From NCBI GenBank assembly GCA_918797485.1, contig CAKKNE010000002.1, positions 1,392,501 to 1,456,500 of the forward strand: a DNA stretch of 64,000 nucleotides, written 5' to 3'. Each line of letters begins with the position of its first letter. Position 1 is the stretch's first letter. Shown in pieces: positions 58,698 through 62,916 of this stretch. Position numbers and translations under genes: made by a program. The notes beneath the pieces were generated by a model that saw nothing but the letters and a program-made list of their open reading frames with translations, was not told the DNA's origin and searched no databases. This DNA is from Pelagomonas calceolata. Lineage: Eukaryota; Sar; Pelagophyceae; Pelagomonadales; Pelagomonadaceae.

Positions 58698-58934
58698 GTG
58701 CGCGCTCCTGAGGGTGGCGCGAGCTCGTAGCGCTCGCTACGTCCTCGGGACCGGCAATTGCAGGCCACCAGCCTCAGAGCCTTATTCCTTGTTAAGCGTC
58801 AGTTTCCGGGTCGGGAGTTGCGTCGGGCTCGAGCCCGGGTTGGAATCAGACCGTCGCTCCCTCCCGGAGGTCGCTTGCGCCGCGAGTCGAGAGCAAGTCA
58901 GTCCCAAAAGTGAATATTACCGAGCTAGCGGCAT

Positions 58935-58946
58935 GTAAGACACTAG
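58935..58946 (+). promoter_or_regulatory. GTAAGACACTAG intergenic motif (exact core)
   Basis: Context GAGCTAGCGGCAT, core, GAAGC. It lies 18 bp outside the left end of the Mutator-like element, which may have separated it from the gene now starting at 62917. Confidence 0.6.
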
Positions 58947-58963
58947 GAAGCCAAGCCTTTGAG

Positions 58964-59030
58964 GGTACGGGCTGACTAGGGAAATTGGTGGGCTGACCAG
59001 GGAAATTGGAGCGAGGGGCTGGAAATTGGG
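58964..59030 (+). repeat. MULE left terminal inverted repeat
   Basis: Pairs with 62638-62704 with a few mismatches; ends 13 bp before the first transposase-gene ATG, so it probably carries its promoter. Confidence 0.9.
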
Positions 59031-59043
59031 GCTGACGCTGTCC

Positions 59044-60486
59044 ATGGACTTTTTTCGATATATATTTAGGACTCCGGAGCCTGCGCGGCAGCCCCAAATC
59101 CTGAAGGAGACGTCGCCACTGGCAGGCAGGTCCAAGGCAGAGCAGCGGGACCACCTCGACCGGATTTGCGAAGCGCGCCACGGGGAAATCAACAGCGACG
59201 AAGAAGACGAACCGCACTGGTCGGTACCACCTGGAGCTAAAGAAGTGCTGCCCGCGTTCGAGCTCGACCCGCCGTCGAAGCGATCGAAGCGCGCTGGCAC
59301 AAACTACGATTCTACAGACCACGTACCAGAAAGGACATGGATCAAGGTGAAGGGTGCCGCCATCAATGACCCGCCCGTCGCTGCGGCTCTCGATGAGCTG
59401 TTCGGCGAGGACGGCGCAGGCCACACTCCGTTGGGAAAAAAACCTAAGCCGAACCCGAAAAGAGGTATTAAGAAATACGAGTGGCGCTTCTGCAAGTTTG
59501 CCAAACTGGGCTGCCCGAAAGCGTGTCGCATCTCATTCATGGAGAACGGCGACGCCATCATCAAACCCAACAGGTGGGGCCACGAGCATCCGGAGGGCGA
59601 TGCTCGTGAAGAGCTAGCTAATCGAAAGGGCCTGCCACCGACAGCTAAACTTGCACTGAAGCCCTTCGTCGACGCAGGCCACTACAAGATGGTGGATTGC
59701 ATCGATACCTTGAAAAAAGGTGGGCATTTGGGCCCAAACGGGGCATACTACAACGAGAAGACCCAAAGGAAATTCAAAAAGATGATCAAAAACTACTTGA
59801 CGTACGCCATCGAGAAGAAACACGGCAAAGGTGGGAGGTGGTCGTCGGAGTACGGTGATTTTTTGAAGGACGTGGAGGACGACTCCAAAACTGACGAGGA
59901 GGTGGAGGCCATGGTGGCCAACAAGGACTGGGACACACCATTTACTTTTGATGCCAATATATCAGGAGCTCAGAGCAAAAACTTTTTTTGTAGTGCTAAC
60001 ATCCGCTCTCTTAGCAGAGCTATGCAACAGGCTTTGACTGGGACACCCCAGGCGTGTGGTGATGGGACAGGCCGCATCAATTTAGAAGGAAGGTCGCTTG
60101 TATTCATCGGGACCGTCGACCGTGGGCAATCCTTCCATCACATAGCAGCTTTCCTATTATCAAAGGGCGAGACGAAGGAGGAGATTCTGCGTGGCCTCAG
60201 AGCCATCTCCAAGAAGATTGATGCTGTTCACAGGGCGATGCTTCGCCTACCAGCCGGCGAGGCTCTCTACAACGCCAGCGAGCTCGGCGCAGGCTACACA
60301 TGGGCTCCGAAGACCGTGATGAACGACAACTCGGACGCGTTTTTTAGCGCCTGGACCGAGATCATTTTCGAAAGATTGAGGGAGGAGATCGTGCAGCTCA
60401 AGGCCGAGAACGCCGAACTCAGAGGCGAGCAGATGGACACCGACGAAGATGAGGAGGCCGAGGACTCGATGGAGGACGTCGCTTAG
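59044..60486 (+). CDS. MULE transposase, N-terminal part (zinc finger and DDE Asp residues)
   Basis: 480 aa. Residues ~140-190 hold a GCM/WRKY/FLYWCH-like finger: YEWRFCKFAKLGCPKACRIS with two Cys, then WGHEHPEGD with two His. After a helical linker comes the start of the MULE catalytic fold: ACGDGTGRINLEGRSLVFIG (first catalytic Asp in GDGT) and KTVMNDNSDAFFSAW (second Asp region). The protein then ends with a coiled coil (FERLREEIVQLKAENAEL) and acidic tail. The third catalytic acid and the SWIM finger are not here; they are in the convergent gene at 61546-62637. The ATG at 59044 lies just inside the terminal repeat. Confidence 0.88.
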   Translation: MDFFRYIFRTPEPARQPQILKETSPLAGRSKAEQRDHLDRICEARHGEINSDEEDEPHWSVPPGAKEVLPAFELDPPSKRSKRAGTNYDSTDHVPERTWIKVKGAAINDPPVAAALDELFGEDGAGHTPLGKKPKPNPKRGIKKYEWRFCKFAKLGCPKACRISFMENGDAIIKPNRWGHEHPEGDAREELANRKGLPPTAKLALKPFVDAGHYKMVDCIDTLKKGGHLGPNGAYYNEKTQRKFKKMIKNYLTYAIEKKHGKGGRWSSEYGDFLKDVEDDSKTDEEVEAMVANKDWDTPFTFDANISGAQSKNFFCSANIRSLSRAMQQALTGTPQACGDGTGRINLEGRSLVFIGTVDRGQSFHHIAAFLLSKGETKEEILRGLRAISKKIDAVHRAMLRLPAGEALYNASELGAGYTWAPKTVMNDNSDAFFSAWTEIIFERLREEIVQLKAENAELRGEQMDTDEDEEAEDSMEDVA

Positions 60487-61545
60487 TAGATACATCCCGC
60501 TTCCCCGGGGGTTCCTACACGTCGGGGCCCCGCGTTAAGGAAGCTTTCATACCAAAACATAATTACACAAGGCCGGCGGCGCTGAGCTGCGGGTCACCTA
60601 GGACGTTCATTCAACGCCGAACCGATGACGTTCATGATGCCCGCGTCATCTATCAGACATGGAGAGACCACTGCGTCGACCTCCAGGTCGTCGACGCGAG
60701 GGAACTCGACTTGGCGCTCGTGCAATTGCTTGTGCGCGGCGGCCATCACCCGGCAACACCGCTCCGCAGCTCTTCTTCGCTAAAGGCTCGGCTGCTCGCG
60801 TTCTGGGGTTGGTGCGCTGTCAAATGGCACCGGGGCTCAACCCGCGATGCCGTCGCCGCGTCGTACTCGGCGCCCCATCTCAGGGAGTGGCAGTGGGCTG
60901 CCCACGCCGCGCGGTGGTGCGCGGCATCGCACCGGCGCTTCCGGCGCGTCCTTAAAGGACTCATGGGGCCCCCGGCGGCGCGTGGGCAGCCGGCGCGCAG
61001 CTAGGACAGCCTGGGAGATTAAGCGTGGCGATGAATTAGCCGGGCGGGTATTACGCGTCAAAATTCGGTTTTAAGGCCCCGCTAGCCGCCCTAAGCTGCG
61101 CGTCGGCTGCCCCACGCCACTGGCCTGGCCCAGAGGGCCGGATCGGCAGCCTGACGGGCCGTCTGGGCTGCCTGGGGCCAAAATCATGCCATCGTCCCAT
61201 CGCGCTCTCCCAGCGCTCCATCCGGATTCCACCGCTCCATCCGGACGCCGGTCGTTCCATCGTGCCACCGGTCCAGGAAGGACTGATGCATCGCTCGGAG
61301 GGGCCCGAGCGAAGCCTGGACGGGCCCGCCCGATCCAACCTGGTTTGTGCCAGGCACAGACCAGGCACCTGGGCGGGCCCGCCCAGGTGCCTGGGCGGGC
61401 CGGACCGGGGCCTAGAGGGAGCGCTCCGGAGCACCCGAGATGTCTAGTTTACGCGCTATAGGGATGTCTAGGGCCCCTGCGCCAGGGTTCAGGTTCAGTT
61501 CAGGTTCAGTTCAGGTTCAGTTCAGGTTCAGGTTCAGCCCCAGAA
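60487..61545. other. Non-coding centre of the MULE
   Basis: 1.06 kb between the two convergent transposase genes. GC-rich with many short inverted repeats built on GGGCGGGCC, and a tandem repeat near its right end. ORFs here look like shadows. It should contain the 3' ends of both transcripts. Confidence 0.6.
61485..61537 (+). repeat. 11-bp tandem repeat (TTCAGGTTCAG)
   Basis: About five copies of TTCAGGTTCAG in a row, with the last one partly shortened, inside the non-coding centre of the MULE. Confidence 0.8.
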
Positions 61546-62637
61546 TCAACCAAAGGGGTGGGGAGGGGGGGCTGTAGCAGCTGGGGCCTTCGGAGGAATG
61601 CTGAAGCGCGGCTGATCAAAGGTGAGGGCCCCACCTTTCCTAGCCTTCCTCCGGCCCCCACGCTTCGTCTCTTCTCCGATGACCTTAATATCTTTTTCTT
61701 CTGGTATTTGGATCCTTCCGTGCTTCACATCCCAGGCCAGGCTGCAATCGCAAGTTTCCTTCATCTGGTAATCAATGCACGTGCAAGCGCACGAGGTCGC
61801 AGCACCGGTGCGGACAATGGAATAGAGCATACACGCACCCTTAGAGGATTTGTGAAAATCATCTAAGGATGTGATGCGGTCCATGTCTCCTGTGTATAGG
61901 AGCTCCTTATTCTGAAGGATCGGTTTGGCATGCTCCTCGATCGTGCTGCGTTCTCCACCATGCTTGGAGGCAATTGCCTTGTAGCTCTCTTTTGAGAGGA
62001 GGAAAACACACGTTGCCTTCTCCGGCGGGTGAAAGGGCGAATATGTGATTTCCAGCTCCCTCGTGGCTGTCACGTCGAATATGAACGTGTCTCGAAGTAA
62101 CTGCTGTACGCTGCGCCATTGATCCTCTTTGATGTGCTCTGCTTTAGTGAGGAACAATTGGTTTGTGAAGGGATGTTTCCTCATCCACTCCATGTGCTCC
62201 CGGTACCAAGCACGGAGCGAGAGACGGTTCCAGTCAGTGGCCTCGTCTTTGTAGGTGCGATTCCCTCTTTCATCACCATTGTTCTGGTCGGGTAGCCCTG
62301 GTTCCTGGTCCGCCGTCGTCCAATTGACGGCCCGTCCGTGCAGGTACTCCTGGGAGAACCTTTTCATGACCTTCGGTTCGCGCCGCGTCCACTCGAACTC
62401 GAACAGCTGGAACACCCTGGCCTTCCACGGCCGGAGAGTGATGCCGAGCTTCGAGATGTCATAGAGCTCTTTCTTGAACTCCTTGCGGCTCTCGTCGCTC
62501 GTGAAAAGGCTTCTATATCCTCTCTTGCCACCCTTGTCCATGAGATGCTGTACATGTACTGAACAGGTGCCGAGCAGCCACTCTACCGTGCCAGTAGGCT
62601 CCGGCGCAGTTGGGGGCTTCTTCTTGCCTCGTGCCAT
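61546..62637 (-). CDS. MULE transposase, C-terminal part (catalytic Glu region and SWIM finger)
   Basis: 363 aa. PDQNNGDERGNRTYKDEATD matches the MULE signature around the third catalytic acid (usually NNxxE..NxxxK). SWIM zinc-finger pattern SCACTCIDYQMKETCDCSLA follows at ~290. The end is Lys/Arg/Pro-rich. It lacks the finger and first two Asp residues, which are encoded by 59044-60486 on the other strand. Either the two proteins assemble into one active enzyme or one supplies DNA binding (inference). Its ATG lies right at the inner edge of the right terminal repeat. Confidence 0.85.
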   Translation of the reverse strand: MARGKKKPPTAPEPTGTVEWLLGTCSVHVQHLMDKGGKRGYRSLFTSDESRKEFKKELYDISKLGITLRPWKARVFQLFEFEWTRREPKVMKRFSQEYLHGRAVNWTTADQEPGLPDQNNGDERGNRTYKDEATDWNRLSLRAWYREHMEWMRKHPFTNQLFLTKAEHIKEDQWRSVQQLLRDTFIFDVTATRELEITYSPFHPPEKATCVFLLSKESYKAIASKHGGERSTIEEHAKPILQNKELLYTGDMDRITSLDDFHKSSKGACMLYSIVRTGAATSCACTCIDYQMKETCDCSLAWDVKHGRIQIPEEKDIKVIGEETKRGGRRKARKGGALTFDQPRFSIPPKAPAATAPPPHPFG

Positions 62638-62704
62638 CCCAATTTCCAGCCCCTCGCTCCAATTTCCCTGGTCAGCCCCGCAATTTCCCAGGTCAGCCCG
62701 TACC
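62638..62704 (-). repeat. MULE right terminal inverted repeat
   Basis: Inverted partner of 58964-59030; followed directly by the 9-bp duplication GCCTTTGAG. Confidence 0.9.
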
Positions 62705-62916
62705 GCCTTTGAGGCTGGCTAACTCCTCGACACGCAGTGCATAGCTGCACAGCATTCGCGTGGGACGCGAGACTTACTCACAGATCAGGCTGCAAGCCGC
62801 CGAGCGAGGTCTAGGGACCCTGCTGCCGAGGCAAGCTGCACTGCTCTCCCTAGCACTTTTGGCCTGCACTCCACTCCACGCCGTCGACGCGAAATTACGA
62901 AATACCTCGTGTACAA

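Follow-up and report, generated by a model that had tools for sequence, protein, structure and literature searches.

Published Mutator-like elements (MULEs) have target duplications of 8-11 bp and, in the set of PMC6446971, terminal inverted repeats (TIRs) of 14-500 bp, some MULEs having no TIRs. Promoters within the Mu TIRs may drive convergent transcription of the interior (PMC3276141). In the Muta1 element of Aedes aegypti the catalytic triad is D214, D283 and E419; the enzyme also needs W401 and H307, the latter part of a CxxH motif, and replacing any of these five residues by alanine abolished activity. CxxH and W are common to hAT transposases too (PMC5225508). The first and second Asp (D1 and D2) are ~60-76 apart in arthropod families except Ghost (84, gaps counted), and D2 to Glu is ~120-135 (residues plus gaps) in 8 of 12 families (PMC13359780). 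In prokaryote relatives a C/D(2)H motif lies 11-19 residues past D2, after strand beta-5 (PMC3942029). We analysed a 64,000-nucleotide stretch of the alga Pelagomonas calceolata (the window; positions 1,392,501 to 1,456,500 of contig CAKKNE010000002.1, assembly GCA_918797485.1) and found at positions 58964-62704 a complete insertion with MULE-like ends. From its motifs, this element very probably encodes a MULE-like transposase divided between two convergent genes, ORF1 on the + strand and ORF2 on the - strand, at the boundary between D2 and CxxH.

The limits of the insertion were read from its ends and from the target duplication. The two TIRs, 67 nt each, are identical at 63 of 67 positions, and the four mismatches form two adjacent pairs, at TIR positions 14-15 and 25-26. 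A perfect 9-bp duplication directly flanks them. Each TIR contains two ~20-bp units of the type GGGCTGACYAGGGAAATTGG, likely transposase binding sites. Both the 9-bp duplication and the 67-bp TIRs fall within the MULE ranges given above. The features of the ends are as follows.

58955-58963: left target site duplication (GCCTTTGAG); the same 9-mer flanks both sides
58964-59030, + strand: left TIR, 67 bp, beginning GGTACGGGCTGAC; pairs with 62638-62704 at 63/67
58969-59010, + strand: two tandem ~21-bp units GGGCTGACYAGGGAAATTGG within the left TIR, a direct repeat
62638-62704, - strand: right TIR, 67 bp; pairs with 58964-59030
62705-62713: right target site duplication, identical to the left 9-mer

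The hallmarks of hAT elements are an 8-bp target duplication and short TIRs; the 9-bp duplication and the 67-bp TIRs seen here do not fit them.

Two long open reading frames (ORFs) converge within the element, each beginning just inside a TIR. The distance from TIR to ATG is 13 bp for ORF1 and 0 bp for ORF2, whose ATG is the first codon inside the right TIR and has G at both -3 and +4. The ORF1 frame was listed from a TTG (59026-60486, 486 aa), and its first ATG, at 59044, gives 480 aa. Basic clusters start at residues 79, 132 and 243 of ORF1 and at residues 3 and 329 of ORF2. The genes and their proposed motifs are listed below.

59044-60486, + strand: ORF1, 480 aa from the first ATG, proposed N-terminal transposase half plus an added tail (open frame, motifs)
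59482-59589, + strand: FLYWCH/WRKY-GCM1-like finger, W147..C..C..HxH182 of ORF1 (pattern match)
60061-60063, + strand: proposed first catalytic Asp, D340 in DGTG of ORF1, 88 residues before D428
60325-60327, + strand: proposed second catalytic Asp, D428 in MNDNSDA of ORF1 (motif position)
61546-62637, - strand: ORF2, 363 aa, proposed C-terminal transposase half (open frame, motifs)
62554-62565, - strand: CxxH motif, C25 and H28 of ORF2 (motif as in PMC5225508 and PMC3942029)
62320-62322, - strand: conserved Trp, W106 of ORF2, 17 residues before E123
62269-62283, - strand: NNGDE (N119-E123) with the proposed catalytic Glu, E123 of ORF2 (motif; sub-threshold rve_3 match)
61744-61791, - strand: Cys cluster CACTC..CDC, ORF2 residues 283-298, in a SWIM-like position with an imperfect pattern (pattern match)

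The ORF1 finger reads W147-R-F-C...C...H-E-H182 and presumably resembles the FLYWCH/WRKY-GCM1 fingers of MULEs; NNxxE, found in ORF2, is a known Glu motif of MULEs. Shuffle patterns were written post hoc, after inspection of the sequences, and their numbers are descriptive: the finger pattern was found in 24 of 100,000 shuffled ORF1 sequences, the loose Asp pattern (DGT...DxxxA) in 2,588 of 100,000, which makes it weak, and in 200,000 ORF2 shuffles CxxH-W-N[NAT]xxE occurred 147 times, the Cys cluster alone 213 times, the two together 0 times and the uninformative CxxH-W-E without Asn 23,249 times. Across the two ORFs no motif is repeated and none is lacking, and the order is complementary. We found that a six-frame scan of the element with three motif patterns gave each block once without a stop. 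The same scan disposed of a second C-terminal half on the + strand, the sole extra hit being a loose Asp match on the - strand that contains a stop.

For spacing across the two proteins we used a virtual join of ORF1 residue 441 to ORF2 residue 13, an arbitrary choice. CxxH and W fall between D2 and Glu; all motifs of the proposed DDE (Asp-Asp-Glu) set stand in order, spread over the two ORFs, with D1-D2 at 88 and D2-Cys at 26 in the join. The break follows D2 and the residues just after it, and precedes the residues ahead of CxxH. In the join D2-Glu is 124, within the 120-135 of the arthropod families (136 in Muta1), and D2-H is 29 compared with 24 in Muta1. Within ORF2, W-E is 17 (18 in Muta1, W401-E419) and H-W is 78 (94 in Muta1). 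The motif spacings mostly agree with published MULEs, D1-D2 and D2-CxxH being somewhat long.

A preliminary description of this DNA had claimed intact ends with 67-bp inverted repeats and a perfect 9-bp duplication, and two open frames on opposite strands starting just inside the repeats; both claims were borne out by the TIRs, the duplication and the convergent ORFs with their ATGs 13 and 0 bp inside. Its placing of a finger and two catalytic Asp in one gene stands for the motifs, which are present in ORF1, at motif level only and with no profile match. For the second gene it had proposed NNxxE and a SWIM finger, and had named a missing Glu region as grounds for refutation. NNGDE is present and ORF2 keeps the whole CxxH...W...NNxxE block; a SWIM finger in the strict sense is doubtful. 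The SWIM pattern is CxC-x(n)-CxH, whereas the ORF2 cluster is CxC-x(n)-CxC, and the SWIM profile PF04434 had no match in ORF2 or in the ORF2 fragment.

Searching the genome with the SWIM profile listed two places, neither in the element. The only listed match above the Pfam cut-off (C6:381657-381749) lies within a 786-codon frame whose translation also contains apparent RING and ZZ-type fingers, and which is probably a ubiquitin ligase rather than a transposase.

The longest stop-free run in the element is 506 codons, longer than the maximum of every one of 1000 resamplings as first-order Markov sequences (longest run: median 188, 95th percentile 275, maximum 475). We also simulated unselected substitutions 2,000 times, scoring whether both frames were still open. 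This was the case in 5.4% of simulations at about 3% substitutions per copy, a figure that presumes all four TIR differences to postdate insertion, and in 59% at 0.5% substitutions per site. The simulation gives mild support to a two-subunit enzyme.

Measured from stop to stop, ORF1 has a guanine-cytosine (GC) content of 0.56 at codon position 1 and 0.667 at position 3, and ORF2 one of 0.55 and 0.654. The window contains 25 other long, non-overlapping frames, some of which may not be genes. At position 1, 24 of them are above both ORFs; at position 3, 24 are above both and one equals ORF1. Codon usage was dropped as evidence for the pair: the distance between ORF1 and ORF2 (6.34) is not below many ORF-to-host distances.

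The transposase assignment of ORF1 and ORF2 is made at the level of motifs. The one profile result over a proposed catalytic motif was rve_3 (integrase core), which covered ORF2 residues 111-140, the NNGDE stretch, at E = 0.24 for whole ORF2 and 0.069 for an ORF2 fragment, below the family cut-off. The genome gave no match to the MULE profile PF10551 at E up to 1; this search may overlook weak ones. Get5_bdg and other Pfam families at E 0.049-0.27 were taken as chance. NCBIfam gave one chance-level match on ORF2 and none on ORF1, and PHROGs two sub-threshold matches, both in the ORF1 tail. No Rfam family reached its gathering score in 58900-62760, hence no sign of a self-splicing intron that would hint at trans-splicing.

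We then looked for copies and relatives. The published assembly of P. calceolata RCC100 comprises 32.4 Mb in six nuclear contigs, with a further contig each for the plastid and the mitochondrion, and has a nuclear GC of 63%; it was built from Nanopore data, Illumina reads being used to polish it and Hi-C to check it (PMC9481584). The assembly searched here has 32,445,274 bases in 8 contigs, and the window has a GC of 63%. All genome searches score best candidates only. At DNA level six places were found: the element itself, the pairing of its two ends, two short stretches that match the ORF1 coil alone, and a spacer palindrome matching itself. Apart from the element, protein searches gave only two weak matches, both to the ORF1 end (E = 0.009 and 0.075). 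With one mismatch allowed, the start of the TIR was found at 23 sites; only two are exact, the element's own ends, and a backward-read control gave 60 sites, which puts the other 21 at chance level. The TIR unit GGGCTGACYAGGGAAATTGG, with up to 3 mismatches, was found at four sites, all inside the element (backward-read control, 1).

Outside its own genome, no relative was found in four scans of IMG/VR or in two scans of the GTDB genome set (the second with ORF1 residues 1-440 only), these scans depending on shared 8-residue words, nor among PDB sequences, and tblastn against phage records gave no match. Absence of relatives from own-genome, viral, phage, prokaryote and PDB searches says little about other algae.

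Two further parts of the element bear on how the split arose.

60370-60445, + strand: coiled-coil tail of ORF1, kin to short stretches in other long ORFs (DNA and protein matches)
60487-61545: middle spacer, 1,059 bp, 65% GC, with tandem and palindromic repeats (GC, repeat and DNA searches)

From residue 443 on, ORF1 is a likely coil, RLREEIVQLKAENAELRG. Its DNA matches C3:3646540-3646587 (92% identity over 48 bp) and C5:969399-969468 (81% over 70 bp), each within a long ORF that reads it in the frame used by ORF1 and is unlike ORF1 elsewhere; at protein level, five genome places were found including its own. ORF1 thus appears to end in sequence common to other genes of the genome, and the coil-coding stretch may be a dispersed in-frame module. 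The stretch coding for LRxEIxxLKAENAELRG also recurs in unlike long ORFs at C5:4144594-4144656 and C4:4332200-4332259. The 48-bp match includes AGA and AGG codons, and a 20-bp core of the coil, with 1 mismatch, was found at 6 genome sites compared with 0 for a backward-read control.

For the spacer, a DNA search of the same genome found no other copy. It contains a perfect 17-bp inverted pair with zero gap (61361-61394) and, at 61487-61541, tandemly repeated 11-bp units such as GTTCAGGTTCA. A 183-codon stop-to-stop frame in the spacer was considered as a captured gene and rejected; its sole other match, to an ankyrin-repeat-like ORF, looks compositional (30% over 72 residues with E = 0.0013, or 29% with E = 4e-5 when just the two sequences were compared). 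A 24-nt inverted match at 75% between 59027-59050 and 61519-61542 was too weak as a trace of an old right end and was not used.

The preliminary description had suggested that the split arose by inversion of the 3' half. This is still the simplest and likeliest origin, and it is insufficient alone. Flipping ORF2 back would not restore one gene, because ORF1 has its own coil tail and stop and the 1,059-bp, GC-richer spacer intervenes; there was therefore more than one inversion, or an inversion accompanied by further change. An invertible switch was also rejected, as none of the 11 inverted pairs of at least 16 nt flanks the ORF2 segment and flipping restores no single frame.

The best explanation, which we put forward tentatively, is a MULE in which one transposase has become divided between two convergent genes, with the halves still cooperating. 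TIR promoters would drive both genes and each half would enter the nucleus through its own basic stretch. ORF1 (finger, D1, D2, coil) and ORF2 (CxxH, W, Glu, Cys cluster) would fold into one RNase-H active site, and the assembled enzyme would cut and paste the element; as a speculation, the coil could tie ORF1 dimers at the two ends. The split would have begun with inversion of the 3' half in an ordinary MULE, followed or accompanied by the gain of a coil tail and stop in ORF1, and would also have brought in the spacer DNA and the start codon beside the right TIR. Cooperating halves would explain why a start near the TIR, an end and a basic stretch are present in each of them. Slightly more doubtful is the full proposal of a working DDE transposase, in which two proteins, each expressed from its own end of the element, make one RNase-H active site and the element can move only when both ends are active.

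Several results weigh against halves that cooperate. Pfam gave neither ORF a MULE, SWIM or FLYWCH match at E up to 5, and none turned up at E up to 10 for four fragments or for two fusions made in silico; rve_3 was neither listed for either fusion nor found by a profile search of the genome (PF13683). Single-sequence AlphaFold models were too poor to use, with a mean predicted local distance difference test score (pLDDT) of 39.5 for ORF1 and 33.2 for ORF2. The ORF1 ATG has T at -3 (G at +4). The D1-D2 distance of 88 is slightly above the arthropod 60-76 (Ghost, 84), and the CxxH Cys comes 26 residues after D2 in the join, compared with 11-19 in prokaryote relatives. The decay argument is weakened because the TIR differences are two adjacent pairs and may predate insertion. 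Finally, DNA, protein and TIR searches of its own genome found no second copy, no end-bearing derivative and no protein relative, and because the element is a singleton in the searched genome, nothing shows movement after the split.

The same singleton, without derivatives, is what would be left by a dead, recently rearranged MULE that underwent an internal inversion, gained other DNA and does not transpose itself, the event being too young for its frames to have closed. MULEs are known to capture fragments of host genes (PMC6446971, PMC3276141), both frames survived in 59% of the 2,000 simulations at 0.5% substitutions per site, and fewer assumptions about protein folding are needed than for a two-subunit enzyme. 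A raw inversion, however, predicts that ORF1 would run into unrelated antisense, where we found an in-frame coil and a stop, and that ORF2 would have no fitting start, where its ATG is the first codon inside the TIR. A two-subunit enzyme and a broken young element explain the data about equally; we regard each as a real possibility that falls somewhat short of an even chance.

It is unlikely that ORF1 and ORF2 are not halves at all, one being a divergent transposase and the other an accessory protein, like mudrA and mudrB in MuDR. MULEs with an additional gene are known (PMC6446971, PMC3276141) and the catalytic assignment has no profile support, but only 52 residues of ORF1 follow D428, mostly coil and acidic tail, which is too short for the MULE insert and Glu region, and in ORF2 CxxH, W and NNxxE follow one another as in MULEs, at near-MULE spacing. 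Less likely again, and indeed improbable, is that two different defective copies were fused, the left end and N-terminal half coming from one and the right end and C-terminal half from the other. Such a fusion would suit TIRs that differ at 4 of 67 positions, but independent defective copies should repeat or lack motifs where here they are complementary, and the DNA search of the same genome found no second copy.

If the halves cooperate, a DDE triad would be divided between two polypeptides, which would be new: the literature, covered mostly outside subscription journals and in part, held no description of a DDE transposase whose triad is shared by two genes. The element would then also be a natural test of the points at which an RNase-H-like fold tolerates being cut and put together again, and would act as a natural safety catch, activity requiring both genes. 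If the halves do not cooperate, the element is a clear snapshot of MULE rearrangement and of the pickup of other coding sequence.

In several respects the element resembles Muta1, an active MULE: it has a MULE-size target duplication (8 or 9 bp in Muta1) and long TIRs with subterminal tandem units (PMC5225508). As in MULEs such as Muta1, the finger comes before the proposed catalytic part and D-D, CxxH, W and Glu are similarly spaced (PMC5225508, PMC13359780). It differs from Muta1, where everything is in one 504-residue protein, in having two genes on opposite strands and no MULE profile match; the single-protein transposase of MULEs is replaced here by two convergent ORFs. Two-ORF MULEs are also described from six arthropod species, with the transposase length summed over two ORFs (PMC13359780); the section on them gives neither break point nor strands, and the two ORFs there may be exons. 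Maize MuDR, with mudrA and mudrB, likewise has two genes. In MuDR, however, mudrA is the transposase and mudrB encodes a protein of unknown function, whereas here each gene would hold part of the proposed triad. The heteromeric TnsA/TnsB transposase of Tn7 is like the arrangement proposed here in that transposition needs two different proteins, and differs in being bacterial and in that either subunit carries a full active site.

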